Origin: Norana najaformis
Lineage: Eukaryota > Annelida > Clitellata > Crassiclitellata > Hormogastridae
Length of the DNA: 64,000 nt
Reading direction: 5' to 3'
Assembly: GCA_964023275.1 (NCBI GenBank)
Contig: OZ029923.1
Coordinates: 10,306,238 to 10,370,237 of the forward strand
Part shown: positions 3,172 through 58,042 of the stretch, piece after piece
How the letters are laid out: every line of letters begins with the position of its first letter
How positions within the stretch are numbered: the stretch's first letter is position 1
Translations under genes and position numbers: made by a program
Notes under the pieces: model-generated
Told to the model about the DNA's origin: nothing
What the model saw: only the letters and a program-made list of their open reading frames with translations
The model's database searches: none

Positions 3172-4983
3172 CTACTCGCTGTCAACATCCATGTCCATCT
3201 GGGTCAGATTAGTATCAGCTGGAGCCCCTCCTAAACCCTCATGAGCTCTACGAGCACTGGAAGGCCGCTCCTCGCGATCGGATTCTTCTTTCTCAGATTC
3301 TGGTTTCTTGGCCTTCTCTTCCACACCTCCTCCAACCAAATTCTTCTCTTCCTCATCGTAGTCGCGTTTCACCTTTCTCGGCTTCTCCTCTGCCTCACGC
3401 TCCTGGTCTTTGTCACGATGTCTCGACGACTTGCCATCTCCTCCAGCCTCGCGTCGCTCACGACTGCGGTTGCGTTCACGACTTCTGTCAAGCTCTTTCC
3501 TGCTGTCACGGTCACTTTCGCGTTTCTTCTCAGGACTGCGGTCTTTGTCACGACGGCTGTCACGGTCACGGTCGCGCTTGGAGTCCCGATCTTTGTCGCG
3601 CTCTCTATCACGATCTGTTCCCTTTCGATCCAAATCACGGTTGGAATCTCGAGTCTTGTCTTTCCTTGCTGAGCTTCTTGGAGACTTGCTTTTCGACCGG
3701 CTCTTTTTCGGGGATTTCTTCGGGCTTCGAGACCTTCGCCTGGATGATTCCTTCCTTGAGCTTGACTCTTCCGGCTCCGTCTTACGTTTCTTGGAAGGGT
3801 TCTCATGCTCTGAGACACCTGACCCTTCTTTTTCAAGTTTTGGGATTGATGGTGAGTGGCTCCGTGACTTCGACTTCTTTGTAGCAGCTTCACGACTTTT
3901 CACCTTGCTTCCTGATCGACTTCTCTTTCTCTTGCTCCCGCTAGGTGACCGAGACTTCCTTGACTTTGATGGCCTTGGCGATCGTGACTTGCTCCTGTGT
4001 CGCTTATGATCATGGTCCTTTGACTTTGACCTTGACCTCCGTCTTCTTGGAGAACGTGACCTGCGTCTCGAGTGTGACCTTGAATGACGTCTTGACCTGG
4101 AGTCCTTGTATGACCTTGAACTAGACCTCTTGCGAGACCGCGACCTCCGTGATCGTGACCTCGACCTGTGCCTTGACCTCGACCTATGTGAGCGAGAGCT
4201 CCGGTGCCGTGAAGATCGTGACTTGGATCGCGTTCTTCGGCCGTTGGCATCTGGATCAACTGCAGCTGCAATCAGCGGTTGTGCTTCGTTGACCTTGCGC
4301 ATTGCTTCCTCAATTTCACGGCTCGTCGCATTCAGACCTGGTGCCACCGGCTTCACAATCGCATTATTTGATGGCGTCACGCGGATCGCCCGTCCAGCAA
4401 ACACCTGACCATTAAGGGACAGAGCTTTGACCACAGACACCTGGTCAGTGTATTCGACAAACGCACTACGGACCAGAAGGTTTTCATCTCCCGCCATACG
4501 AACATACTTCACCTCTCCAGCCTGCCCGAAAAACTGCAGCAGTGCTTCAGCCGAAACTGCCGCATCAATGTTACTGACATAGACGGTGCGGCGAATCTCC
4601 TCCACTTTAGAGAGCTCTGTCGATGCCGGAAGTGCTGGATACTGCGCCAGACCCATGTACATCGTGCTTGGATCATGGGAGGCTGGGTTGTTGATCAAAC
4701 CCAAAGCGGCTGTCTCATCTGGAATCTTCCCATCCGGGACTGGAACGACAATCAAAGGCCGGTCGACAAAGACTGTGTTCGTCAGATGGAGTGAAACTCC
4801 CACGTCTTCTGAATCGCGGAACTTTACAAAACAAACACGAGAAAGAACGTCTGAAGATTCTTCTGGATAAAGACGAATGTCATCGATTTTACCGATGAAA
4901 CCGAACAGAGTTTTCATCTGGTCTTTTGTTACACTTGGTGACAGGTTGCTCACCTGAATTACCTTTGTGTCTTCGTCAGGCAT
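3172..4983 (-). CDS. SREK1: Splicing regulatory glutamic acid/lysine-rich protein 1 (SR-related)
   Basis: This is a predicted nuclear SR-related splicing regulator of 603 residues, resembling SREK1/SFRS12/SRrp86. RRM1 lies at about residues 7-82 (IQVSNL, VCFVKF). RRM2 is at about 131-205, with VYVSNI as RNP2, SAFVEY as RNP1, and the family stretches EVKYVRMAGDE and SNNAIVKP. A helix at about 220-240 (SREIEEAMRKVNEAQPLIAA) matches the human protein. An Arg-Ser domain runs from about 250 to 440, followed by an R/D/E/K-rich tail ending MDMDVDSE. The whole coding sequence is one exon, while the human gene is split by many introns. The start is the first ATG of the frame and gives a complete RRM1. 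The long open frames on the opposite strand are by-products of the RS codons. A retrocopy is possible, but the frame is intact and the long two-RRM form is complete. Confidence 0.93.
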   Translation of the reverse strand: MPDEDTKVIQVSNLSPSVTKDQMKTLFGFIGKIDDIRLYPEESSDVLSRVCFVKFRDSEDVGVSLHLTNTVFVDRPLIVVPVPDGKIPDETAALGLINNPASHDPSTMYMGLAQYPALPASTELSKVEEIRRTVYVSNIDAAVSAEALLQFFGQAGEVKYVRMAGDENLLVRSAFVEYTDQVSVVKALSLNGQVFAGRAIRVTPSNNAIVKPVAPGLNATSREIEEAMRKVNEAQPLIAAAVDPDANGRRTRSKSRSSRHRSSRSHRSRSRHRSRSRSRRSRSRKRSSSRSYKDSRSRRHSRSHSRRRSRSPRRRRSRSKSKDHDHKRHRSKSRSPRPSKSRKSRSPSGSKRKRSRSGSKVKSREAATKKSKSRSHSPSIPKLEKEGSGVSEHENPSKKRKTEPEESSSRKESSRRRSRSPKKSPKKSRSKSKSPRSSARKDKTRDSNRDLDRKGTDRDRERDKDRDSKRDRDRDSRRDKDRSPEKKRESDRDSRKELDRSRERNRSRERREAGGDGKSSRHRDKDQEREAEEKPRKVKRDYDEEEKNLVGGGVEEKAKKPESEKEESDREERPSSARRAHEGLGGAPADTNLTQMDMDVDSE

Positions 4984-5027
4984 GGCTAAGTTCAGTCTTG
5001 TGACCTATGCAACATATAAGAAGTGCA

Positions 5028-6109: not shown

Positions 6110-6386
6110 CTGCATAATAATTAGCAACTTCCAATGAAAAGACTGAAAACACTTCTTTTCCAAAAATCTTATGCTGATTCTTCCTCTTCCCCTTATCTCT
6201 CTTCTCGCTTCAATTTCAAACATCATCCACCGTAGCCGTCTGACTGCCTGACTCCTGAATCTTGACCTGTAACCGAACCCTTTTGCCTAGCGATTTTGTT
6301 TTGACTGAGCGCCTGTGAATAAGCTGGTTCCCGCGACTTAGCTTTCGTTGGGCGCTGTAGAAATCTCGAGATTACGATTACGATGA
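6110..6386 (+). repeat. SINE-like family A copy, long form
   Basis: This is one of the longest copies. A pyrimidine-rich 5' part (CTTCCTCTTCCCCTTATCTC) is followed by the core (GATTTTGTTTTGACTGAGCG) and GGGCGCTGTAGAAATCTCGA, ending in the tail ATTACGATTACGA. It abuts a minus-strand family B copy. Confidence 0.85.
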
Positions 6387-6505
6387 CAAGGCATCAACTG
6401 ATGGCACACCAAAACCAAGACACAATCAGGTCGATATCCAGAAGGTCAGTCCTATGGTGGATAAGCAATTTGAAACAGATAACTTTTAAGTTGAGAACGA
6501 AAAAA
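6386..6505 (-). repeat. SINE-like family B copy
   Basis: The reverse complement of the family B core is present: AAGGCATCAACTGATGGCAC, ACCAAAACCAAG and CCTATGGTGGATAAGCAATT. The last word is shared with the copy at 23585-23720. Confidence 0.65.
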
Positions 6506-6910: not shown

Positions 6911-6919
6911 TTAAATCAG
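6911..6919 (+). repeat. Target site duplication, left
   Basis: TTAAATCAG stands immediately outside the left end of the foldback element and recurs exactly at 15490-15498. A 9-bp duplication is typical of Mutator-like elements and of Drosophila FB elements. Confidence 0.75.
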
Positions 6920-7084
6920 ACGCGGCGAAACCTATCAACAAATACAAATACAAATATAAATACATATCCGGATTCCGGGTTACTAGAGCGTCACCTAGGG
7001 AAATGTAATGCTTCAACAAAAATGCGTAGCACGAGTCATTGATTGAAACGTTCACGAACGAATTGGAACTGGATTGTTCGCCAA

Positions 7085-10000
7085 ATGTATATCGAACCCA
7101 TACACCGTCCATATGGGTGTCATCAAATGAATCTATTACCACTCTGGCAGTCAAAGTGCTTGAACACAGAGTCGCCAAAATCCGGAAATGCAGCAGATTC
7201 TATTACAGATTCGCCTATAGAAGCAGAATGCACAATTCAGGCGAGGATGGTCATGAGGGTACATAAAGAACCCATACGTGGTCCATGTGGGTCTCATCAA
7301 ATGGATATATTTGCACTCTGGCAGCCGCACTCCTCGAATACAGATTCAAATACAGATTCGCCAAAATCCGGAAAATCAGCATATACAAATACAGATTCGC
7401 CTGTAGAAGCAGAATGCACAATTCAGGCCAGGATGGTCATGAGGATCCATAAGGGAACTGTACTTGGTCCATATGGGTCTCATCAAATGGATATATTTGC
7501 ACTCTGGCAGCCGCACTCCTCGTATACAGATTCAAATACAGGTTCGCCAAAATCCGGAAAATCAGCATATACAAATACAGATTCGCCTGTAGAAGCAGAA
7601 TGCACAATTCAGGCGAGGATTGTCATGAGGGTACATAAAGAACCCATACGTGGTCCATATGGGTCTCATCAAATGGATATATTTGCACTCTGGCAGCCGC
7701 ACTCCTCGTATACAGATTCAAATACAGGTTCGCCAAAATCCGGAAAATCAGCATATACAAATACAGATTCGCCTGTAGAAGCAGAATGCACAATTCAGGC
7801 GAGGATTGTCATGAGGGTACATAAAGAACCCATACGTGGTCCATATGGGTCTCATCAAATATATATATCTGCACTCTGGCAGCTGCACTCCTCGTATACA
7901 GATTCAAATACAGATTCGCCAAAATCCGGAAAATCAGCATATACAAATACACATTCGCCTGTAGAAGCAGAATGCACAATTCAGGCCAGGATGGTCATGA
8001 GGGTACATAAAGAACCCATACGTGGTCTATATGGGTCTCATCAAATGGATATATTTGCACTCTGGCAGCCGCACTCCTCGTATACAGATTCAAATACAGG
8101 TTCGCCAAAATCCGGAAAATCAGCATATACAAATACACATTCGCCTGTAGAAGCAGAATGCACAATTCAGGCCAGGATGGTCATGAGGGTACATAAAGAA
8201 CCCATACGTGGTCTATATGGGTCTCATCAAATGGATATATTTGCACTCTGGCAGCCGCACTCCTCGAATACAGATTCGCCAAAATCCGGAAAATCAGCAT
8301 ATACAAATAGAGATTCGCCTGTAGAAGCAGAATGCACAATTCAGGCCAGGATGGTCATGAGGATCCATAAGGGAACTGTACTTGGTCCATATGGGTCTCA
8401 TCAAATGGATATATTTGCACTCTGGCAGCCGCACTCCTCGTATACAGATTCAAATACAGGTTCGCCAAAATCCGGAAAATCAGCATATACAAATAGAGAT
8501 TCGCCTGTAGAAGCAGAATGCACAATTCAGGCCAGGATGGTCATGAGGATCCATAAGGGAACTGTACTTGGTCCATATGGGTCTCATCAAATGGATATAT
8601 TTGCACTCTGGCAGCCGCACTCCTCGTATACAGATTCAAATACAGGTTCGCCAAAATCCGGAAAATCAGCATATACAAATACAGATTCGCCTGTAGAAGC
8701 AGAATGCACAATTCAGGCGAGGATTGTCATGAGGGTACATAAAGAACCCATACGTGGTCCATATGGGTCTCATCAAATATATATATCTGCACTCTGGCAG
8801 CTGCACTCCTCGTATACAGATTCAAATACAGATTCGCCAAAATCCGGAAAATCAGCATATACAAATACACATTCGCCTGTAGAAGCAGAATGCACAATTC
8901 AGGCCAGGATGGTCATGAGGATCCATAAAGAACCCATACGTGGTCCATATGGGTCTCATCAAATGGATATATTTGCACTCTGGCAGCCGCACTCCTCGTA
9001 TACAGATTCAAATACAGGTTCGCCAAAATCCGGAAAATCAGCATATACAAATACAGATTCGCCTGTAGAAGCAGAATGCACAATTCAGGCCAGGATGGTC
9101 ATGAGGATCCATAAGGGAACTGTACTTGGTCCATATGGGTCTCATCAAATGGATATATTTGCACTCTGGCAGCCGCACTCCTCGTATACAGATTCAAATA
9201 CAGGTTCGCCAAAATCCGGAAAATCAGCATATACAAATACAGATTCGCCTGTAGAAGCAGAATGCACAATTCAGGCGAGGATTGTCATGAGGGTACATAA
9301 AGAACCCATACGTGGTCCATATGGGTCTCATCAAATATATATATCTGCACTCTGGCAGCTGCACTCCTCGTATACAGATTCAAATACAGATTCGCCAAAA
9401 TCCGGAAAATCAGCATATACAAATACACATTCGCCTGTAGAAGCAGAATGCACAATTCAGGCCAGGATGGTCATGAGGGTACATAAAGAACCCATACGTG
9501 GTCTATATGGGTCTCATCAAATGGATATATTTGCACTCTGGCAGCCGCACTCCTCGTATACAGATTCAAATACAGATTCGCCAAAATCCGGAAAATCAGC
9601 ATATACAAATACAGATTCGCCTGTAGAAGCAGAATGCACAATTCAGGCCAGGATGGTCATGAGGGTACATAAAGAACCCATACGTGGTCTATATGGGTCT
9701 CATCAAATGGATATATTTGCACTCTAGCAGCCGCACTCCTCGTATACAGATTCAAATACAGGTTCGCCAAAATCCGGAAAATCAGCATATACAAATACAC
9801 ATTCGCCTGTAGAAGCAGAATGCACAATTCAGGCCAGGATGGTCATGAGGGTACATAAAGAACCCATACGTGGTCCATGTGGGTCTCATCAAATGGATAT
9901 ATTTGCACTCTGGCAGCCGCACTCCTCGAATACAGATTCAAATACAGATTCGCCAAAATCCGGAAAATCAGCATATACAAATACAGATTCGCCTGTAGAA

Positions 10001-10465
10001 GCAGAATGCACAATTCAGGCCAGGATGGTCATGAGGGTACATAAAGAACCCATACGTGGTCCATGTGGGTCTCATCAAATGGATATATTTGCACTCTGGC
10101 AGCCGCACTCCTCGTATACAGATTCAAATACAGATTCGCCAAAATCCGGAAAATCAGCATATACAAATACACATTCGCCTGTAGAAGCAGAATGCACAAT
10201 TCAGGCCAGGATGGACATGAGGATCCATAAGGGAACTGTACTTGGTCCATATGGGTCTCATAAAATGAATCTAGTTGCACTCTGGCAGTCACACTCCTTG
10301 AATACAGATTCAAATACAGATTCGCGAAATTCCGGAAATTCTGCATAAACAAATACAGATTCGCCTATATCGAGAAAATGCACGACTCAGGCAAGTGTAG
10401 TCATATATGGGTTCATAAGGAACCCATACATGGCCCTTAAGGGTCTCATGAAATGCGTATTGACC
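7085..10465 (+). repeat. 186-bp tandem array, left arm
   Basis: There are about 18 units, most with CCAAAATCCGGAAAATCAGC, GCAGAATGCACAATTCAGGC and ATGGGTCTCATCAAAT. The spacing measured between two consecutive units is exactly 186 bp (7361 to 7547), and one unit near 8270 lacks 12 bp. Recurrent variants include GGTACATAAAGAACCC or GGATCCATAAGGGAAC, and GGATATATTTGCACTC or ATATATATCTGCACTC. The outer units are the most diverged and the middle ones nearly identical, as expected of arrays evolving by unequal exchange. An open frame runs from 7043 to 9727 because the period is 62 codons. It has no recognisable domain. Confidence 0.95.
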
Positions 10466-11218
10466 TGCTGTAGTTCAAGTACTTCCCAGCACTGCCCAGT
10501 CGCCTCTAGGAGTGAGGAGAAAGACGTCCTGCTTGTGTCGGCTGCTATGTCGGCAAAGTCGCTGCTCGGGTTGGACGTTGACCGGATAGAGCGGACATCC
10601 GTCATCCTATAATACTATCTGCGTCATGTTTTTTCGCCCCTGACATTCACGCTAGGTGAGATAGTACCCGTATGCCCGCGTTTTGACTCCTTCTGGCGCT
10701 ATCCACTTTTTCGTGTCCCGAAGTCTCACGTTGGTCTTGTTCTGCTCATATACGCCCAGCAGGTGTCCACGGCTGAGTAGTGCTGGTTTTCACCGTTTCA
10801 CAACAGTAGAAGAGCGACGTTGTGTGAATCTAGCCTCGCATGAGACATCTATTGGATGCAACCCGCGATTCCACCCTGTCACAAAATGCGCTAATGCTTG
10901 CCCATTCCTGTTGTAAACGCACCTGGGTGGCAGGAAAGTAGGATCGGCTGTTGGGCACGGTGAATAAGAAGGACGGCCGTACCGAGGGTTGGGGAGTCGC
11001 TGGGTTGAGTCAGTTTCTGAGTGACGGAGCGAGGAGAAGATGATTTTCGGGAATTCGAAGGAGGGTTCAGTCAAAGGAATTGGAGGAGCGGTCCGTGGCT
11101 GGAGTGACGGGTAGCTTGAGAAGCCGAGAAATGCTTTCCTTCCCTTTATCTTCGTATTCGTAAGTTTGTGTATATATAGTGTTACATTTCAGCTAGTTTA
11201 AAATGTATGTATTTCGAG
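10466..11218. other. Core of foldback element, left part
   Basis: The sequence is of unknown origin and more GC-rich than the surroundings. Short open frames exist on the minus strand (10605-10387 and 11074-10790), but neither resembles a family I know. Confidence 0.4.
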
Positions 11219-11251
<33 letters not shown>

Positions 11252-11252
11252 G

Positions 11253-11286
<34 letters not shown>

Positions 11287-11297
11287 TACATACCTAC
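11219..11297. repeat. (TA)n microsatellite with TATG interruptions
   Basis: Alternating TA with regular GTATA interruptions, about 75 bp. Confidence 0.9.
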
Positions 11298-12027
11298 ACA
11301 CTCGTGTTAGTGCGTAATTGAGGAGTCTGCTTTAGTTGTAGGCTACACGGGATTTAAATTATGCATATAAGTCTGGCTATAAGTAAGACTCGTAGCGATA
11401 TCTATTTGAATAGTTGAGGTCTTAGGTGTCCTATTTGAATAATGGACTTCAATTTTTGCAGTTTGTGTATGCAGATATATTAGAATACTTTAAATGTATA
11501 TATCTGCTGTATTTAATATCTGCCGGAGATGGTATACTTTGTGCTTTATTTGGTACGCAATTTTGTGGTTTATGTAGGCTTACATGCTGGAAAACTGCAC
11601 TCATTGGAATTTAGTATTCAAGTATTTTGAAAAAAAGTTTATTGTATGTGAATTTAGCTCGGTACCCTGGTGGCGTGGGTGAATTGGAGCTGGTTGGTTT
11701 GATGACACGGGGCCGTTATAGAGCTTGTCGACTGTGTATGAGGGATGGAATCCGAATCCAGTCAAGTATTTCTGAGTGGTGATTCTGCGAGTGGAGAAGT
11801 CGACCGGAATAGGCCAGCGCCAGATGCCTGAGACTTCTACTACTCCCGTAGGGCTGTGGTAGTCGCGAGAGTTTATTTTGGTGTCTCTGTGTATAGGATG
11901 GCTTGCAGTGTTTTTGATAAGACAGTTATTGGTTATTCTGTTGAAGGAAGAGTCTTTGTAAATAAAATCTGTAAATAAACATTGTAAATATAACAACTGA
12001 AATTAGAAATTGGCTTTTCCTTGAAAC
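11298..12027. other. Core of foldback element, middle part, unassigned
   Basis: A minus-strand open frame of 131 codons (11996-11601) includes SGIWRWPIPVDFSTRRI. I do not recognise it. It might belong with the fossil fragment to its right. Confidence 0.35.
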
Positions 12028-12440
12028 TTAGTTAAACGAATTCGCGACACACCCGAACACGCTTACGCTATGGGCAGGTTCTGGCGCTCGAACTTGCCGA
12101 CGTCGGACACCTTTACAGGGAATTCGATCCCGGAGAAATTCAGCTCTCTTAGATGGGCACTGCATTTGATTGAACGTTGGGAGTCTTTTCTGCCGGATAC
12201 ATTGCCGACAACACAGTCGACTCAAAGCAGCGGTTGTCTCTGTTTTGCACGTTAATGACATAGCGCGGTCGAATGTTACTGCTGTCGTGAAACAGCCGAT
12301 GCTGAGCCGTACCTAGATTCAGCGCCTCTACATTTCTGAGTCTCCACCCTGACCCTTCATCTGTGTACTCTTCTCGGCGTCTGAGCATCTGCGCCTTCGC
12401 TGCCTCGAGTGCATCTTCGATGTCACCCGCATTCTATAAT
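12028..12440 (-). mobile_element. Possible fossil fragment of a PolB-encoding (Polinton-like) element
   Basis: Minus-strand peptides around SGWRLRNVEALNLG and YVINVQNRDNRCFES resemble a conserved protein that, as I recall, accompanies family-B DNA polymerases in animal Polinton-like elements. Only a short piece is present and it is broken. It lies inside the core of the foldback element. The family assignment rests on motif recall alone and is weak. Confidence 0.3.
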
Positions 12441-12900
12441 GGACAAGTGTCTGAGTAAGGTGTAATCAGCATGCGATCGATGTTGTAACACGGCGCTGCT
12501 CAAGTATTTGTTGCTATGTCATATAGCGCCTTTGCATTGCATCGGATACAAAGTAAGGTAAAATACAGAGAAGCGCTACAGTGTGGAATGAACGCGAGCC
12601 CAGGACAGTTCTGCATCGTGGCTCAGCCAAAAGACCCGTACCTGAAGATCGTAGGCTGCGAGAAGGGATGCAAAGAGAGACTTTTCATTTAAGGTAGTTA
12701 GGAGTGCTAATGGCATGAATTTTATAGGTAAGACCGGATACCTTAAATCTTATCCGGATTTTCGGAGGAATTCAATGGAGCTCGTTTACTATAGCTAAGG
12801 AATTTGTACGAGGAAGTGCACGCAGCACCACACGAGCCATGAAATTTTGGATGAACTGAAGCCTTTGAGTTCAAGATCTGAAATACCTCGTTGGCATAAT
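12441..12900. other. Core of foldback element, unassigned
   Basis: No recognisable coding or repeat sequence was seen, apart from the word TATAGCGCCTTTG near 12521-12533, which recalls the shared 3' box of the SINE-like families. Confidence 0.35.
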
Positions 12901-13360
12901 CAAGACGAGATCAGATCAGACAACAGGTTACAGTTTGTGCCATGTTTTTGGTAAAAAGCAGACCTGATGTGACGTAATGCCCAGATATGATAGAAACAAG
13001 ATTTACATAAGTTTCTAAAGTGGGGTCGAAATGTGAGTTTGCTGTCCAAAATTACACCAAAAATTCTGCTTAATAGCGGAACAGTGCCAGCTAGGTCAAT
13101 GCTGGAATGTGAAGGGAGAAATCGCAGATGTTGGCATGAGCCAAACATGATCACCTCAGATTTATCTGGTTTTCTGGCCAAACCATTGAAACAGAACCAT
13201 TCATGAACAGAACAGAGAAATTCACCAAGTTTCACCTTGACTGACTGATCAGTGGGTGAAAGAGCAATGCAAAGCCGATTGTCATCAGTGCACTGCTGTA
13301 CCTTCGCTCCAAAGTCGTTGGCTATGCGGGTACCTGGTGCAGTGGATTGTAAATAATAAA
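12900..13360 (-). mobile_element. LINE reverse-transcriptase fragment
   Basis: Read on the minus strand, the peptide has the finger/palm-to-thumb layout of a non-LTR reverse transcriptase. CTDDNRLCIALSPTDQSV stands where the catalytic YADD-type motif is expected. It is followed by VHEWFCFNGLARKPDKSEV, then FGVILDSKLTFRPHFRN and CFYHIWALRHIRS. The first residue of the YADD box is Cys-Thr instead of Tyr-Ala, and only about 150 residues remain, so the copy is dead. It abuts the right array of the foldback element and was probably inserted there. Confidence 0.75.
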
Positions 13361-13394
13361 GGTATAAGGACAGATACTTGTGGGCTCCACAAGT

Positions 13395-15215
13395 GCAGAA
13401 AGAATGATCACACCATTTTTCCGAAATTCCTCGAATCTGTATTTGTATATGCAGAATTTCCGGAATTTCGTGAAACCGTATTTGAATCTGTATACGAGGA
13501 GTGCGGCTGCCAGAGTGCAAATATATCCATTTTATGAGACCCATATGGACCAAGTACAGTTCCCTTATGGATCCTCATGTCCATCCTGGCCTGAATTGTG
13601 CATTCTGTTTCTATAGGCGAATCTGTATTTGTATATGCTGATTTTCCGGATTTTGGCGAATCTGTATTTGAATCTGTATACGAGGAGTGCAGCTGCCAGA
13701 GTGCAAATATATACATTTGATGAGACCCATATGGACCACGTATGGGTTCTTTATGTACCCTCATGACAATCCTCGCCTGAATTGTGCATTCTGCTTCTAC
13801 AGGCGAATCTGTATTTGTATATGCTGATTTTCCGGATTTTGGCGAACCTGTATTTGAATCTGTATACGAGGAGTGCTTCTGCCAGAGTGCAAATATATCC
13901 ATTTGATGAGACCCATATGGACCACGTATGGGTTCTTTATGTACCCTCATGACCATCCTGGCCTGAATTGTGCATTCTGCTTCTACAGGCGAATGTGTAT
14001 TTGTATATGCTGATTTTCCGGATTTTGGCGAATCTGTATTTGAATCTGTATACGAGGAGTGCAGCTGCCAGAGTGCAGATATATATATTTGATGAGACCC
14101 ATATGGACCACGTATGGGTTCTTTATGTACCCTCATGACCATCCTCGCCTGAATTGTGCATTCTGCTTCTACAGGCGAATCTGTATTTGTATATGCTGAT
14201 TTTCCGGATTTTGGCGAACCTGTATTTGAATCTGTATACGAGGAGTGCGGCTGCCAGAGTGCAAATATATCCATTTGATGAGACCCATATGGACCACGTA
14301 TGGGTTCTTTATGTACCCTCATGACAATCCTCGCCTGAATTGTGCATTCTGCTTCTACAGGCGAATGTGTATTTGTATATGCTGATTTTCCGGATTTTGG
14401 CGAATCTGTATTTGAATCTGTATACGAGGAGTGCAGCTGCCAGAGTGCAGATATATATATTTGATGAGACCCATATGGACCACGTATGGGTTCTTTATGT
14501 ACCCTCATGACAATCCTCGCCTGAATTGTGCATTCTGCTTCTACAGGCGAATGTGTATTTGTATATGCTGATTTTCCGGATTTTGGCGAACCTGTATTTG
14601 AATCTGTATACGAGGAGTGCAGCTGCCAGAGTGCAAATATATCCATTTGATGAGACCCATATAGACCACGTATGGGTTCTTTATGTACCCTCATGACCAT
14701 CCTGGCCTGAATTGTGCATTCTGCTTCTACAGGCGAATCTGTATTTGTATATGCTGATTTTCCGGATTTTGGCGAACCTGTATTTGAATCTGTATACGAG
14801 GAGTGCGGCTGCCAGAGTGCAAATATATCCATTTGATGAGACCCATATAGACCACGTATGGGTTCTTTATGTACCCTCATGACCATCCTCGCCTGAATTG
14901 TGCATTCTGCTTCTACAGGCGAATGTGTATTTGTATATGCTGATTTTCCGGATTTTGGCGAATCTGTATTTGAATCTGTATACGAGGAGTGCGGCTGCCA
15001 GAGTGCAAATATATACATTTGATGAGACCCATATGGACCACGTATGGGTTCTTTATGTACCCTCATGACAATCCTGGCCTGAATTGTGCATTCTGCTTCT
15101 ACAGGCGAATGTGTATTTGTATATGCTGATTTTCCGGATTTTGGCAAATCTGTATTTGAATCTGTATACCAGGAGTGCGGCTGCCAGAGTGCAAATTTAT
15201 CCATTTGATGAGACC
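13395..15215 (-). repeat. 186-bp tandem array, right arm (inverted)
   Basis: About 10 units are the reverse complement of the left arm, with the same variant types, including the ATATATATCTGCACTC class. On the minus strand a frame stays open from 15204 to 13408 (598 codons) in the same register as in the left arm. The innermost unit is the most diverged and touches the LINE fragment. Confidence 0.95.
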
Positions 15216-15489
15216 CATTTGAATGCGATAATTCGATCGGCAGTTTATGGGTTTGTACGTGTATCGCACAATTCTGTTCAATATACGGTCTTTGGGCGAA
15301 TTTTCGTTAATATGCGCCTTTCGTTAACAAATTGTGCAGTTCCTATTGATTCATGAACATTTTTATCGTTTAATCCTCTTTGAAATTTGAGATGCCAAAT
15401 ATTGCACTACTATTTCGCTAGTTGGCAGCACAGAAACCCGGAATCCGGAACGGAAATGTATTTATATCTGTTGATAGGTTTTTATACGT

Positions 15490-15498
15490 TTAAATCAG
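15490..15498 (+). repeat. Target site duplication, right
   Basis: TTAAATCAG is identical to 6911-6919 and directly abuts the right inverted end (TTTTTATACGT on the plus strand). Confidence 0.75.
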
Positions 15499-16175
15499 TC
15501 GGTGTTTCCGGTGCGGACGAGTAACACGCTTTTAATGTAAGAATCGGTTTTTCTTTCGTGTTAATATTTTGCAGTTTATTGTGTCAACGGCAATGTTCCA
15601 TTTCTTAATTATTGCAAATTAATATTTGTTTCAGCGTACGATTTGTAAAGATTTTCGACCCTTGATTGGATGCTTTGGACAACCCCACTGACTTGACGAA
15701 GCGCTCGTGAATAAGCTAGTGCCCTGGGCACGAGTGTAGATTTGGTGACTGTTATCAAATGTCTTCAAATTTTACCTCGTTTTGTGCCCTGCGCTTAGGT
15801 TTTAAGTAGCGCTTGAGAAATTTCGAGTTTACGACCACAACTAGTTTTGATGCCTTGTTTAAGTAAATGCTGGTCGGCACATGGTCATTTCCTAATGTCT
15901 TCTGGAAAGAAGTAAAATGATAGCATAAATTGCCAACCTGCCACTTGGCCATAGATACCAAGAAAAATACAAATGACGTGTAATACAAAATGTTTACCAC
16001 AGCATTATACAAATACCCCACCTGTTTTGCAAAATTAGAATGCAACTATTTGGCGAATCAGAGGTTGTAGTGGAGCACATCCCTCAACGGACTTACGTTT
16101 TGCCTCATTGATCATTATGCCTCAGGCTGCATTTTCGCTTTGTCCTGCAAACTCCATATCTTGTTGCCTCTAATA
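15499..16175. other. TRMT1 upstream region
   Basis: The region holds a diverged family A copy (about 15660-15845) and AT-rich sequence. A possible acceptor (TTTGTTTATCAG, ending at 16199) lies between the two candidate TRMT1 start codons, so a short 5' exon may exist. Confidence 0.4.
15660..15845 (+). repeat. SINE-like family A copy, variant subfamily
   Basis: GACAACCCCACTGACTTGAC, AGCGCTCGTGAATAAGCT and TAAGTAGCGCTTGAGAAATT match the variant copy at 56645-56756 better than the main family. Confidence 0.65.
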
Positions 16176-19100
16176 ATGAAGAATAATTTTGTTTATCAGT
16201 GGAAGATGTCAAAAGAATGTGTCGATGTGGTCACAACAACCGCTCAATCGGTACGTGAAGGAAAAGCCGAAGTTCTGCTTCCACCCAATGTCTTCTACAA
16301 TCCAGTTCAGGAATTCAACCGTGACCTGACGATTGCTGTAATATCACAGATATCAGTTGAACAGTGGAATAGAAAGAGAACTGATGATCACTCTACAAAA
16401 TCTGACAAAACTCTCGAATTGGAGAAGCCTAAAAATGAAGGCATTGCTACATTGAATGCCAGTGCTGAGGTTACGAGTAAAGGCAAAGAATGTACGGATT
16501 TTGTAGCAGAAAATTTGCCTACAGAATCAGAAGCTTCTTTGGAATGTGATGTAGCTGTTGTGAATGTAGCTGATGTGTCAAAAGAAAATATCACAGATGA
16601 TGCAAAGACAAAATCAGAAGCTGACATTTCTGTGGAGCCAGGGAAGCGATATGCTGGTGGCATTCGCATTCTCGAAGGTTTGGCTGCTTCAGGGTTGCGC
16701 TCTGTTCGATTTGCGCTGGAAGTTCCGGGGGTCAGAGAGATCGTTGCTAACGATTTTGACCAGGTGGCTTTTGATTACATAAAACAAAATGTCAAGAGAA
16801 ATGGTGTCGAGGAAATTGTCACCCCAAGTTACTTGGATGCTGCGATGCTCATGTATCAGAGTCGCCGAATTTCTGAGCAGTTTGACGTCATTGACCTTGA
16901 CCCATACGGGTCCCCAGCAATCTTCTTAGATGCAGCAGTTCAGAGCGTCCGTGATGGCGGTTTGTTGTGCGTTACATGCACTGACATGGCGGTCCTCTGC
17001 GGAAATGCGACAGAAACATGTCATGCAAAGTATGGCTCTACATCGCTTAAGGCTCGATTCTGTCACGAGATGGCGGTGCGAATACTACTGCGTAGTCTTG
17101 AGTCCCACGCCAATCGTTACTCACGCTTCATCGTTCCCATGCTCTCGATCAGCGTCGATTTCTACTGTCGAGTGTTTGTGCAAATCTTTACGGGTCAGAA
17201 AAAGGTGAAAGACTCGGCAATGAAGCTGTCGATGGTCTATCACTGCAATGGTTGTGGGTCGTACGCACTCCAGCCTCTCGTTACGAAGACCCCAACACAT
17301 AACAATAATTTCAAGTATGCCGTTTCAACCGGGCCGCCGATTGCTCCCCGTTGTGCTCACTGCAACGGCCGGTTCAACCTTGGAGGTCCAATCTGGTCTG
17401 CTCCAATTCATGACAGAGGTTTCATCGAGCGGGTGATAGCAAGCGTAGAGAGTGACAAGAACAGGTTTGGCACTAGGCAAAGAATTCTCGGAGTGTTGAA
17501 CGTCGTGTGCGAGGAACTTGAAAATGTACCATTGTACTACGATGTGGATCATCTGTGTACCGTTCTGCACTGCACTGCCATTGGTTTTATTCCAATTAGG
17601 TTAGTTTTTTGGTATTTTATTATTTAATTTCGTTTAATTCTTTTATTTACGAAGTACTACTGTAGAATGTAATAAGTTAAACAATTAAGTAGTAAATTAA
17701 TTTAGATAAATTAATAGCATTACGTTTATTACAGTTGTAATACATGCGAAGGAATTTACTCCAAATCCATAGAAATCATTTTAGATGGTAAATTACCAAG
17801 TAAATTAAATTATAAATTATGTACAAAAGAAATTTAACTGCTCCAAAACCCTATGCAGTAACCACTGAAAATGAATGAAGTAATGAACTAATGAATTGCT
17901 TGTGAGCAAAGGAATTTTCTCCTTGTCTCTACATAGTAACTGTAGAAAATTAGCCATAGAAAACAAATGAAATCATCACGAATTAGAAAGACTAAATATT
18001 TTTTATGTATAATTTCAATGTTACTGTTTTGGTTGCTTTCTGTAGGTCAGCACTTCTGCACAGAGGCTTTGAGGTGTCGCTTTCGCACGCAAGTAAGAAG
18101 TCTCTTAAGACAAATGCGCCATCAGAAGTCATTTGGGTTGGTCTGTGCTTCTGTATCAAAACTAGCTTGCTTAAAGCCAGGATTTATGTTCACTGTTTTT
18201 CTTTTGTTTAGAACAAGTCATGGCATTTTTCTTTGTTTTCCTAAAGTGTTCACTGTTTTGCTATAGTGTATGCAATAAGCCAATGACTTTTGACTGATGC
18301 TCTCAACAAGTGCTTAAACAAGCATTGGCTTTTGAGTCTGTTACTCACATCTATTGCTTAAAATAAGCCACGGATTCTGAGTCTGGTGCTTTCATCTACC
18401 ATTAAAAATGAGCCATGGCTCTGTATCTGTTGCTTCCATAGTAAACAAAATAAGTCATTGCTTTAGGGTCTGTTGCTTTCACCAAGTGCTTGTTAAATAA
18501 GCCATGGCTTTAACCTCATTCTTTTCATGTAGGGTCTGACATAGCCTTTTCAGTCTGTTGCTTTAATCTTGTGTTTAAAATAAGCTATGGCTTCTGAGTC
18601 CTTTTCCTTGCACAGTATCTGACATAAGTGATGGCTTTTATTTGCAGGACATCTTATGCTGCTGGGTGAAAAAGAATCCTGTCAGCGCTGACCGGCTTCA
18701 GAAGGGATCCACAGCAGAGACAATCCTTTCCAAAGAACCATCCTTTGAAGCAGACTTTTCCACACACCCGGACGCAAATCCAGTTTCGCGACGAAAAGGC
18801 CTCGTCCGCTGGCAGCTCAACCCAGAGAAGGACTGGGGGCCCAAACCGAGGGCGGCCCGGAGCAAGCAGGCCATTGAAGAACGGAAGCAGGCGCAGGATG
18901 CAAAGTGTCACAAACTGAAGGCAAAACGGAAAGCGGAAAACGAGGCAAGGCAGGTTTAATTCACCCATAAGAGGTTATGTTATGACGGCAGATTGTAACA
19001 TGTGCATTTTGTAGTGTTACTGGACGTTTGCATAATTTACATGCTTATATGCTTACACTACACTGCATTATAATAACGGCGCTACAGAAGTCGCTAGATT

Positions 19101-24743: not shown

Positions 24744-27454
24744 CTGAAACACACAACAACAAAAACAAATAGCTGAATGGAATAAATCCTCTCAAAACAG
24801 TTGATCAGACTGGAGTCAGCTGGATTTATTTTGCTAGATAACTGAGGTCGTCCCGAATTCCTGAAAGTGTTGAAAATACACAACCGCCCGATTTCCCAAA
24901 AACAGTTTTATAGAAAGCAGTCAAAATCCCAAAAACTAGTAAGGACTACCTAATCAGCAATAATAACCGAACGTATAGGATCTCAGTTTCCCCCCATGCA
25001 ATAACATCCCATCTCGTCGTGTAGACACTGAATTTCAGGGAAGAGTCTCAATTCCACCATACAAACGTTATCTTCTTAATAATCGGGAATCCGGGTCGCA
25101 CTTAGAAAATCGATTTCAGGGATCCGGTCGAAATTCGTTTCGAGGGTTTAGAGATTCACTCTGCACCCAGATAACTAGGCAATGCAAAATAAATCGAACT
25201 GTACTCATCATTTTATAATTTTCTTAAGGATGAATCTTCTGGGGCGGAAAAAATTACTTGTTCGGCGGAAATCTCATTCAAAACTTTCGCGCATGCGCAT
25301 TAAAAATCTTCGCGTATGATATTTACGTTGTAAAAATACGTTTTACAAAGTTAACATGGCAAAATTAATCTTTGGACAAACTTTTGGTAGCCAGCAAGAA
25401 GCTGAACTGTTTGTGACTTCGTATTGTGCTCGAAATTATCACCCAGTGCCATAAAGGCACAATGTAACACGGAAGCTTCCGCCGCACAAGCAATTTCTGC
25501 ATGCGTAGGGCGGCGGAATCTTCCGCCGCAGAAGCACTACGCTTTTCTTAGTAAAAGCAAACATTAGCAACCATAAACCGACTGGAAGAGGTAAGTTTTC
25601 CGTTTAAATCGAATGATGGCCTCGGTAAAAGAATCACGGAAATGAGGCAGTAGAGGGTTCCAAATGGTGGGACCAGCAACTGTGAATCAGCAATGGAAAA
25701 GATAAGTCGCGTACCTCTGACTTAGTATTTCTATAACGAATTTGACCCGGACTTTAATGCTGACAAACCTTCGGGTAACATCGTTTATATTTGTCGAAAT
25801 AGTTTTCCATATATACATTTATGCTGCTAATCAAATAATGCATAAACCACAGAAACTGGACTTTTAGTTAAAATTTGTACAATCACATGTAATACAAATT
25901 TGTTTACATGCACCAATGAAAATGGCGATCAATGTCAAACCAGCACGAGCAATGTGACTAAACTATTCTTAGTTCCTTTTAAATTGCGCTTATATCTGAT
26001 AGACTTTTGGGTAAAAATAATACCAATAATAATCATTCGGATATTTATATACATTTTAGTTTAATCACTAAATATAAAGAATATAAGCAATTTTTTGTTA
26101 AATATTTATAAGAAAATGGGGTTTGAGGCTAACGAGCACGTAGCGCCACCCAGAGTATATTTTAGAAATCCTTAACATTGATTAAGCTGATGTGATCATA
26201 ATGTTATTATATCTATGGATGTGATATTATCTCTATGCTCTATTTAACCGACTTGGATTCCGTTCAGATAGAAGATACAATAATACAATACAATACAACT
26301 TGTATTTATAACGCGCCTTAATAAAACAATGTCTTACTCAAAGAACGCGTTACAACATAATAATTAGTTATAGTACTGAGAGAATAAATGAGTCTTAAGT
26401 TATAATTTAAAAGTATCTATTGAAGAGCATTCAGGTTTCAACAGTATGATTTACTTCCAGCATCCCGCCAACTTTTTCTTCCATTGGTCATGTCAGAAAG
26501 ATATCTTTCTTTTCCTTGTAATCCAAATGTTTACAACATAAAAATGCTGATGACAATTAAGCAGCCCTATCAACAAATTATGCAGTGCAGAGATATGAAA
26601 TTAAATAATTAATTTCTTCGAATTGAAACATCGGCGAAGACAAGGCATTTCTAACTAATGCTCTCTTTAACAGATCTGTAACATTTGAGAAACTGCCATC
26701 GTAAACAATAACAAACCAAAAAAACCCAAAGAAAGCTGATCATCAAATGCCGGAGCTACTTGCATCAAAGATCGGTCATAGCTTGCATTATCTCCGACAT
26801 TGGGATGTACATATGTGCAGACTGAGAGTTGACTCTCCTGTTTTTCTTTATCTATCATAAACATTTGTGCCTGGCTCGGAACTTTGACCTTTGAATTCCA
26901 GTTGTAATTAGCTTTTGTGATGCAAGATAAGGCTGTTTCGAACTATGCAAATTTTACCAGGTAGTCTTACTTATCAAAAAGACCAATTTAAGTAATTACA
27001 GAAACTACTCACTCGTAGTACGAGTTTTAAAATCACATCAAACTGATGAAACAAAATAATTTTACGAAATAACAAACGAATGCTGCTTTTGTTTCTGCAT
27101 TTAATTAGCCCGCATCCATTCTTATAGACCCTCTGAGGCGGGTCAAAAGCTGGGCCAGTGAGAAAATAGTATTGTGCAGGAACGACAGCTCAGTTTCCAT
27201 GAGTTTGTGCTGCTACATCACAACCACCTGTTTTGTTTCCTGATTGCCGTCGTTGCTTTGTTATTGTTAGGATTTGAGCCGCTTGTTCAGAAAGATCTCA
27301 TCAGTTTGATGATATTTTGCGTCATAGTTTACTTCTGTTGTGTTTAGTGAGTCAACCGCATGGATTTTACTAGTTTCGATAATTTCATCCATGGTTGCTA
27401 TCGTCACCGCGTGGTCGCTGCCATGTTTTGGATGAACTAACAATGAGCCTGTGT
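24744..27454. other. OXNAD1 5' region and intergenic DNA
   Basis: The missing first OXNAD1 exon should lie at the left end, next to the NRF1-like site at 25288. Further right the sequence is AT-rich. Words near 26275-26370 (TATTTATAACGCGCC) recall the SINE-like 3' box in reverse. No other gene was recognised. Confidence 0.45.
25288..25299. promoter_or_regulatory. NRF1-type palindromic site
   Basis: CGCGCATGCGCA is a perfect match to the NRF1 consensus YGCGCAYGCGCR. NRF1 commonly controls nuclear genes for mitochondrial proteins, which fits OXNAD1 as the target. It also marks a likely OXNAD1 start region near 25.2-25.3 kb. Confidence 0.5.
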
Positions 27455-27700
27455 AATCGTAATCTCGAGATTTCTACAGCGCCCAACGAAAGCTAAGTCG
27501 CGGGAACCAGCTTATTCACAGGCGCTTAGTCAAAACAAAATCGATAGGCAAAAGGGTTCGGTTCCAGGTCAAGATCCGGGAGTCAGGCAGTCGGACGGCC
27601 GCGGTGGATGGTGTTTGAAACTGAAGCGAGAAGAGAGATAAGGGGAAGAGGAATCAGGATAAGATTTTTGGAAAAGAAGTGTTTTCACCGTTGAATGTAA
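27455..27700 (-). repeat. SINE-like family A copy, long form
   Basis: A full core in reverse complement begins with the tail GTAATCTCGAGATTTCTAC. GCGCCCAACGAAAGCTAAG, AAAACAAAATCGATAGGCAA and GAAGAGAGATAAGGGGAAGA follow. Confidence 0.9.
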
Positions 27701-38005: not shown

Positions 38006-40973
38006 ATGAGTAAGAAGCAGCCAGCCGCGGCTCCCGCTCCCACTCCCGCTCCTGAACCCACTCCAGCTCCTGCTGCAGTTAAACCGAACTTTCAGGGAAA
38101 GTACAAGCTCGCAAAGAACGAAGATTACGAGGCTTATCTCACGAAAATCGGTAACTCGGACTTATTCTACCAAATCTATAACGCCCCTTTAATATAATGT
38201 AAAGGTCGTATGTATGTATGTATGTATGTATGTATGTATGTATGTATGTATGTATGTATGTATGTATGTATGTATGTATGTATGTATGTATGTATGTATG
38301 TATGTATGAGGACACTTAATAGGGCATATTTTAAATACCTCACAAAAGCGCTGAACAAATGACTTAAAATGTCTATTAAACTGAAAATCTTTTAATGGCG
38401 ACTATAACAGCTACTGAATCTAGACTTACAAAACACTCTGTGTTTAAAATAACGTCACAGTTACGTCATTTGTAAAAAATAACCCTTGCAAAATGGCGAT
38501 CAACTGGAAAACGATCCTGCTGCCATAGTTGAGTGCCGTGTGCACCCTAACTTCTTGAGGCAAGTATTGAAACCGAAGGAGGGCATTTCGAACATAAAGT
38601 ATACTTAAATTGTAGCCAAAATAAATCTATATCCATTGTACTAAAATTTTTCTAGTATGGAGTAAACTTGTATAATAATTTACATTGATTGTTGGAACAA
38701 AATTTAGGGGTTCGCCTTTTCGTTCACGGTGTACAAAGCGTAGTTAAAGAATCACACAAAGGCGTGGCAACATGACTCTCCAACAGATCTGCAGATATAA
38801 TATTTTGTATTCAGTAATTCCGAGATTTCTTTTAACACAATATAAGCTGTAAATATTTCTTCTCCTGATAAAGTTCGGGCTTGCTTTGGGTGTTTGGTCC
38901 ATAACGAAAGTCTAATTCAGACGAAAGCACGATATGCTCCGGTCTTCGTTACGTGAGCGGGGGATCGACAGCTCCCCACTGGCTGAAGAGCGGAGTGATT
39001 GACGACCCGCCTGGCTCGAGACAGGAACGCAGAGCTGTTTGAAGTTTGCGTTTGAGTGAGAGAAATATAAATGAAAATCTCTTAAAATTTCTCATCCCCA
39101 CACAAAAGCAACGATACAGATACCAGCTCAGGCATCGGTGCTTTATCAAACAAGTCGGCAAGAATCAGGTTGTTCGGTGTCAGGTTAGAATCCGGGGTCA
39201 GGCCGGGAAAGTGGAAACATATTGCTACGGTGGGAAACGTTGGTGATGGTAAATGTAAATGTCCACGTTTTCCAACAGCGACCGTATGGCCTTCAACAAT
39301 ACTCGGTTTTCAATGATCAGCTGAGATCCTTCACTACCGCTGTTCGTTTGAATGGGCGCCATACCATATAAGATCCCAGCGCACGGATTAAAACGTAAAT
39401 GTATAGGTTTTATATAGCGACCGTATGGCCTCGACCCTGCTCATTTTGCAATGAATTTATCGGGTGAGATCCTTCACCACCGCTGTCCGTTTGAATGGGC
39501 GCCCAGTACACGGACAGCAGTCATGGGATGGTGCAGTTACAGAAGCAGGATGGGATAGTTGAATGAGCGTTCTTCAGTTACTTAGTCTCTCCCCTACCCA
39601 GTCTCGCAAACGCCTGAAATCATTTTTGTTTGTTCAAGTCGGGAGCGCCACTGTTTCCTAAGAGGCGCTTTATAAATGTTTGTTTACAATTACAATTCGA
39701 ATTCATTTCGAGACTTTCCTCATCTATCTGCAGATCCAGTTCCAAACACCACCCACCGGAACCTCCTGTCTGACTGACGCTTGGATCTTGACCTCAAACC
39801 GAACCCTTCTTGCCTATCGATTTTGTTTTGACTGAGCGCCAGTAAATAAGCTGGTTCCCGCGACTTAGCGCTCTTTGCGCGCTATAGAAATCTCGAGTTT
39901 ACGATTACGACGAGTGTAACCTACTTCGCAAGGCAACCAGCAGCCATTTATGCGTGTGTGTGCGTTTGTGTGTATGTGCGAATGTATGTATGTCTGAGTG
40001 TATGTGTGCGTGGGATGGCGGGTGGAAATGACTCATCCTGTGAACCGCATAAGCGAACCTCGCGTGCAGATGACGGTAGACGGGCGGAGACCCAGCGAAT
40101 GTAGATCAAGGGGCAGCAGATGTGCTGTATACGCCCCGGGCAGGGGCCACTTCAAGCCTAGTCCGGAGTTTTGACCGAGGCTGCATCAGATAGGGCTGCG
40201 ACCTTTGAACCTTTGGTAAAAACAGTCTACACTTCTCGAATTCTGTCTGTTCGTCTGTGTGTCTGCGCGTACATCTGCTTGTCAGTCAGTCAGTCATTCA
40301 GCAAATTAATCAGTCAATCAGTAAATTAGTCAGACAGTCAGTCAATCAGTAAATTAGTCAGTTACTCAGTCAGTCAGTAATTCAGTCAGTCAATCAATCA
40401 ATCAAGAAGTAATTCAATCAATCAGTGCGTCTGTCTGTCTTTCTGCATTACGATCCTTGCGTTACATTACCTCCCTTGACCCAAGACACTGAAGGCAAAT
40501 TAAAGTATCATCATCATCATCACCACCACCACCACCTGACGCCAGCCATTTGGCGGCGATAAAGTATCATAAAACACAGTACGATATGGGTAATGGTAAG
40601 GTAGCACGGTCCGTAGATGGGGACCTTAAATGTGTGGCGACCATTCAAACGGGGTAGCGGTGGCGAAGTATCTCTCCCGATCAATTTATTGAAAAACGAG
40701 CAGGGTCGATGCCGTAAAGTCGTTGTAGAAAAACGTGTACATTTACATTTCGGATGAGGAAAGGCGAAGCAAGGTAGAGACCCTCGCTTAAAACTGTGTC
40801 CCATTTTAGCCGAGCTGCAAAATAGGTCGGTAGCAAATTTTCCATAAATAAGAAAATTTCGAGCACTACTATTGGCTATGCAAGCGTTTGAAAGCAAAAT
40901 TCAAGATGTTTCAGTCGCACCTGTTACCAACTTCAGAACAAGAAAATCTGCAAACAAGCGATAAGACTAAACG

Positions 40974-46307: not shown

Positions 46308-58042
<11,735 letters not shown>

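Follow-up and report, generated by a model that had tools for sequence, protein, structure and literature searches.

A foldback DNA transposon family with unequal ends and a core in both orientations in the genome of Norana najaformis

Results

A 64,000-nucleotide stretch of the genome of the annelid Norana najaformis (assembly GCA_964023275.1, contig OZ029923.1, positions 10,306,238 to 10,370,237 of the forward strand; hereafter the window, with positions counted from its first base) contains an 8,570-bp foldback element (6920–15489) that belongs to a dispersed family. Members of this family are discrete insertions that duplicate 9 bp of their target, pair a left end (L) with a different right end (R), have inverted arms built of a 186-bp repeat and enclose a shared core that holds no recognisable gene and is found pointing either way between the ends. 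The element is very probably a non-autonomous foldback DNA transposon that is moved in trans and whose arms recombine. The family is mobile and recently active, and it seems to lack an enzyme of its own.

Structure of the element

Perfect copies of the 9-bp sequence TTAAATCAG flank the element at 6911–6919 and 15490–15498, and these are its only occurrences in the window (n = 2, both on the forward strand). The ends of the element are unequal, ACGCGGCG on the left and ACGTATAA on the right. Alignment of the left terminus ACGCGGCGAAACCTATCAACA (6920–6940, forward strand) with the right terminus, which reads inward as ACGTATAAAAACCTATCAACA (15469–15489, reverse strand), reveals a common ACG, five bases that differ (CGGCG on the left, TATAA on the right) and, after these, 13 identical bases (AAACCTATCAACA). 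Each terminus opens an outer single-copy segment, L on the left (6920–7165, forward strand; its inner ~60 bp are akin to the repeat unit) and R on the right (15222–15489, reverse strand).

The arrays of the 186-bp unit lie inward of these segments, with 17.7 units on the left (7166–10455, forward strand; one unit has 174 nucleotides) and 9.6 inverted units on the right (13432–15221, reverse strand), and the units match at 93% and 95%, respectively. The left arm (6920–10455) measures 3.5 kb and the right arm (13432–15489) 2.1 kb. The best pairing between them joins 8574–10363 to 13432–15221 and is 97% complementary over 1,790 nucleotides; the outermost single-copy parts of the arms are far less similar (73% over 86 bp). 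A core of ~3 kb (10456–13431, forward strand), in the orientation that we denote as a, separates the arms. A preliminary description of this DNA, made from its letters only, had proposed an 8.57-kb element with a 9-bp target duplication and arms of about 3.5 and 2.1 kb consisting mostly of a 186-bp tandem repeat, and our measurements agree with it throughout.

Ends, pairs and target duplications across the genome

We searched 608 Mb of sequence in 17 contigs and scored 40 of 298 left-end candidates and 40 of 187 right-end candidates. Similarity sets in at query base 9 or 10, where the duplication borders the element, in 33 of the 40 left-end and 28 of the 40 right-end matches; the remaining matches begin a few bases off, and three of these start within the element, at query bases 16, 17 and 36. 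The preliminary description was prepared to give up its boundaries and its single element if other copies did not share these ends. They do share them, and the boundaries, the single-element reading and the foldback plan stand up to comparison with dozens of copies from the genome.

Exact matches to the pattern ACGNNNNNAAACCTATCAACA number 191 in the genome, and the two main end forms are found exactly 99 (L) and 80 (R) times; the reversed-pattern control gave none. With a pair defined as neighbouring inward-facing exact ends at most 13 kb apart, we identified 60 pairs of 1.8–12.6 kb (median 5.9 kb), comprising 59 L+R pairs, one L+L pair and no R+R pair. From this near-strict L+R pairing it seems that the transposase does not treat the two ends alike, a proposal that can be tested.

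Some ends occur in other arrangements. The sole exact L+L pair is on contig 11 (3681535–3687335, 5.8 kb). Two right ends face inward 22.7 kb apart on contig 3 (17674835–17697542), an arrangement that two copies may have produced by exchange. On contig 9 (7542859–7550600), doublets of R ends 59 bp apart recur four times at a spacing of 2,554 bp, and here a piece of the element is now part of a tandem array.

We read 25 copies (24 fetched stretches and the window), 18 of which (17 stretches and the window) had both ends placed and could be scored for duplications; the others (L013–L017, L019 and L020) had an end unplaced on one or both sides. Perfect 9-bp duplications flank 15 of the 18, all of different sequence. 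The exceptions are L030, with one mismatch, and two copies that have no duplication, L022 and the R–R copy L011. The deletion derivatives L010 and L027 bear perfect duplications, as does L061, a 51-bp remnant in which the left and right termini stand back to back; L061 may have moved as a remnant or may have shrunk afterwards.

The preliminary description had proposed a search for empty sites, and one was found in paralogous form. Copy L009 interrupts a member of an interspersed repeat. When its two flanks are put together around one 9-bp site, the resulting sequence matches other members of that repeat (for example, 6211–6384 of the window) ungapped across the junction; those members contain a single site, in which one base differs. 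This ~240-bp dispersed repeat has several diverged copies in the window (among them 6145–6387, 27453–27687, 39718–39913 and 57668–57909); the member that holds L009 lies outside it. The duplications and the empty site mark a discrete mobile element, and the long inverted arms of tandem repeats mark a foldback.

In L055, a relative whose L segment is 75% identical, the first 33 bases are unchanged, which suggests that these bases of the L end may hold the recognised site. A retroelement-like stretch with integrase domains (L055:7509–9478) adjoins the L end of this older relative and probably sits inside it.

Content of the core

The same ~3-kb core is present in 22 of the 25 copies read, at 93–100% identity across blocks K1–K4; the other three (L010, L027 and L030) retain part of one core block only. 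Some cores carry internal deletions or insertions, and L022 and others have small gaps. Five core frames of the window gave no Pfam match at E ≤ 1 and three stretches gave none at E ≤ 10, in line with the earlier remark that the core has no recognisable transposase. Coding by the core was considered and rejected, as diversity is 1.3–4.9% per site along its length (21 cores) and the third codon position is the most variable in none of the five frames.

Two broken frames on the reverse strand, both without a Pfam hit, presumably resemble known proteins. The one at 12149–12433, which had no relatives in the viral-contig scan, we take to be like a Polinton-type protein region, and the one at 12900–13343 we take to be like the tail of a non-long-terminal-repeat reverse transcriptase. 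In a first look at the genome, the core segment 12000–12700 yielded 770 candidates and the adjoining 10456–11200 yielded 247, so part of the former may derive from another repeat.

Candidate transposases

MULE domains occur at 68 places in the genome, and Merlin-type domains (PF12762) give 13 matches. The preliminary description had proposed to look for autonomous relatives with a MULE transposase; none of the 68 MULE matches lies inside an exact end pair. Among the middles read, that of the 12.6-kb pair on contig 15, the largest of all, is an ordinary core, those of two 8.6-kb pairs consist of array and core pieces, and that of a 4.1-kb copy is array alone. L055 was considered as a MULE-bearing relative and set aside; its MULE lies 4.3 kb from the core fragment and could not be shown to be inside the element, and ends of the MULE were not found. 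The earlier impression of a non-autonomous family is supported by the core without recognisable gene that most copies share and by exact pairs free of MULE and Merlin-type matches.

The same genome holds a family of FLYWCH-MULEs, 2.1 kb in length, with a frame of 469 amino acids that contains MULE and FLYWCH domains. Two copies (L053 and L054) have unequal first bases and inverted arms of 14-bp tandem repeats, and because they are 98.5% alike the family has apparently been active recently. It is like the foldback element in its unequal first nucleotides, inverted tandem arms and 9–10-bp duplication; it differs in its size, its 14-bp unit, its end sequence and in encoding this 469-residue frame. 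The frame is found at six further places, two of them with one inner stop.

Our best guess is that a MULE-type enzyme acting in trans moves the foldback family. We consider this reasonably likely because the 9-bp duplication and the unequal termini are as described for Tm1, a Mutator-type foldback element of Meloidogyne. The Mutator-like plan suggested by the preliminary description receives indirect support only: the duplication falls within the 8–11 bp of the Mutator superfamily, the termini are unequal as in Tm1, and tandem-arm MULEs exist in the genome. A MULE transposase was not found inside any exact pair.

The same foldback element could instead be moved by a non-MULE transposase (Rehavkus-like, Merlin, P/Galileo or undescribed). 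The target duplication is 7 bp for Galileo and 7–8 bp for the P superfamily, whereas it is 9 bp in the copies measured here. An IS1595-type transposase within matching ends, the mark of a Merlin element, was not found in any exact pair (0 of 13 PF12762 matches), a result that leaves aside copies with altered ends, and P-type and PHD-type transposases were outside the search. MULEs have also been described with unequal termini outside the inverted repeat (PMC3169594, in the part of that report available to us). A non-MULE enzyme would nevertheless agree with exact pairs that contain no MULE, with the 13 Merlin-type domains in the genome and with a foldback plan that spans superfamilies, Galileo being P-type (PMC3573991, PMC3169594, as far as the available parts describe it). 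We regard such an enzyme as the less probable alternative, with appreciable weight.

Orientation of the core

Among the top-listed matches, 18 copies have both ends and the core, and the core is oriented as in the window in 7 of them and inverted in 11. A tree of 42 cores included 41 that could be labelled by orientation (L011, with its R ends on both sides, is unlabelled); in 22 of these 41 the core stands as in the window, and in 19 it is reversed with respect to the ends. The tree requires 6 orientation changes (bootstrap 5–6), of which well supported branches force 3; if the count is confined to the 29 copies that have both ends (15 and 14 by orientation), 4 are required (bootstrap 3–5; 2 forced). 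Shuffled labels require on average 13.8 and 9.8 changes, respectively, and none of 500 shuffles was as low as the observed number. By this count the core has changed direction several times while the unequal ends kept their places.

The labels cluster on the tree, with one clade of 9 cores all in orientation b and one clade of 14 with 13 in orientation a. From this clustering it follows that flipping is rarer than copying and that random assembly error is an unlikely cause of the differences. Crossing-over between the inverted arrays would be the simplest cause of the turning, because the ends stay L and R as the core turns. No report of an invertible core was met in the available parts of the literature searched, which is not proof of absence.

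The difference in orientation might alternatively go back to a single split between lineages or to errors in the assembly of the inverted arms. The clades that are nearly uniform in orientation would suit a single split, and the assembly was read without the raw reads; but none of 200 bootstrap trees fits one change, and random flips would not produce the clustering that the shuffles failed to reach. We consider this alternative improbable.

Divergence and frames of the array units

To the comparison of units, 19 of the 20 copies entered contributed 250 units (L022 gave none). Divergence between 186-bp units is 4.6% within an arm, 5.3% between the opposite arms of an element and 7.4% between different elements, and opposite arms are nearer each other than to other elements in 17 of the 19 copies. 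Identical units are present in both arms of the window copy.

The window arrays contain open frames of 894 and 632 codons, in the same reading of the unit in both arms, and long frames occur in the arrays of further copies too. Such frames, and a unit length divisible by three, are what a gene for a repeat protein of 62-residue units would display. The changes found in the arrays do not bear this out: 178 distinct variants comprise 37 synonymous, 132 replacement and 9 stop changes, against 41.9, 129.1 and 7.0 expected under neutrality, and are distributed over the three codon positions as 53, 68 and 57. In addition, 35 of 289 units contain a stop, and in the alignment 39 of 289 differ in net length by a number not divisible by three. 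The neutral counts rule out the array as a protein gene, and we hold a repeat protein to be very improbable; the open frame is incidental to the unit length (186 = 3 × 62) and, judged by these counts, looks to vary neutrally.

The mostly repetitive arms and the regularly spaced R ends of contig 9 might suggest a plain satellite array, or a segmental inverted duplication, that mimics an element. This reading is refuted by dispersed copies with exact common ends and different perfect duplications, by the empty site, and by the finding that the 43 places chosen from the listed unit matches to represent their clusters (40 of 299 candidates scored) are all within 5.5 kb of an exact end.

Two genes neighbour the element in the window, one with an RRM domain and an RS-rich tail (3172–5004, reverse strand) and one that belongs to the Pfam TRM family (16071–17627, forward strand). 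ARAGORN found no tRNA in the window.

Discussion

We propose that the element relies on a transposase produced elsewhere, most probably a member of the MULE superfamily, which would bind the ~21–33-bp ends; L and R would be two different sites that need to be paired, and staggered 9-bp cuts would then be made. Unequal exchange and conversion within an element may expand, shrink and homogenise both arrays, and crossing-over between the inverted arms would turn the core and leave the ends unchanged. Long inverted arms are regarded as prone to recombination, as proposed for Galileo in the available part of PMC3573991. The fullest form of this account holds that transposition demands L with R, that the arms keep recombining as the interior switches direction repeatedly, and that the family is driven in trans and sustained by the homogenisation of its arms; we give it about even chances. 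The 60 exact pairs in one assembly allow arm exchange, core inversion, end pairing and loss to be counted directly.

Several observations weigh against parts of this account. Fifty-nine exact ends have no partner, and L+R pairing is not absolute, as there are one L+L pair and the R–R copy L011, which has no duplication. The opposite arms of L021 and L031 are no nearer each other than to other elements, and the difference is small in L009, L020, L023 and L028. Core flips are known from one assembly alone. None of the 81 MULE and Merlin-type matches together lies inside the 60 exact pairs, a test that leaves out elements with altered ends, and the matches nearest to an exact end are 5.4 and 8.7 kb away. 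Membership in the MULE superfamily is not proven for the element, the search having covered MULE and Merlin-type transposases only. The duplication of the FLYWCH-MULEs reads 9 or 10 bp and their ends are unlike those of the foldback family, as judged from two copies of one family.

Comparison with known foldback systems

Foldback elements are already known as a kind (Tm1, Tetris and FB), and the present work adds a family, its near-strict L+R pairing and its repeatedly inverted core. Drosophila FB-NOF we take to be a near system together with Rehavkus. The comparisons that follow rest on the available parts of the reports cited. Rehavkus likewise duplicates 9 bp and carries a minisatellite ahead of one of its ends; it differs in its PHD-finger transposase (PMC6446971), there being none found in the foldback copies; no Pfam domain was detected in the five core frames of the window, and the genome was not searched for PHD-type transposases. 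Galileo shares long arms, some with ~210-bp direct repeats in numbers that are unequal between the arms, and exchange between its copies has been proposed; it differs in its P-type transposase (PMC3573991).

The closest described plans are those of Tetris and Tm1. Tetris of Drosophila virilis has ~220-bp tandem units in its arms with an outer flanking domain, a middle without protein-coding capacity, 8–10-bp duplications and no autonomous copy found, and its units group by element in two of three copies (PMC4079207). Only three complete copies are described there, whereas we find 60 exact pairs; Tetris units also occur in longer satellite-like arrays, whereas no free array was met among the unit matches checked here; and its middle, compared by description, is variable in composition and size, in contrast to the shared core of the present family (PMC4079207). 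Tm1, a Mutator/foldback element with a ~14-bp unit and the end motifs CGGTTAA and CCTACCC, includes one copy that encodes a MULE-type transposase, whereas none was found in our foldback copies, and the available part of its report makes no mention of an invertible core (PMC3169594). Neither these motifs, nor GGA, nor the ~14-bp repeat recur here, as the ends and the unit differ. Its likeness lies in composite arms whose tandem repeats vary in number, in mostly 9-bp duplications without consensus, in mostly non-autonomous copies alongside others like miniature inverted-repeat transposable elements, and in unequal 7-bp motifs outside the inverted repeat, usually one kind per end (PMC3169594), an arrangement that the present family matches with one L and one R in 59 of its 60 exact pairs.

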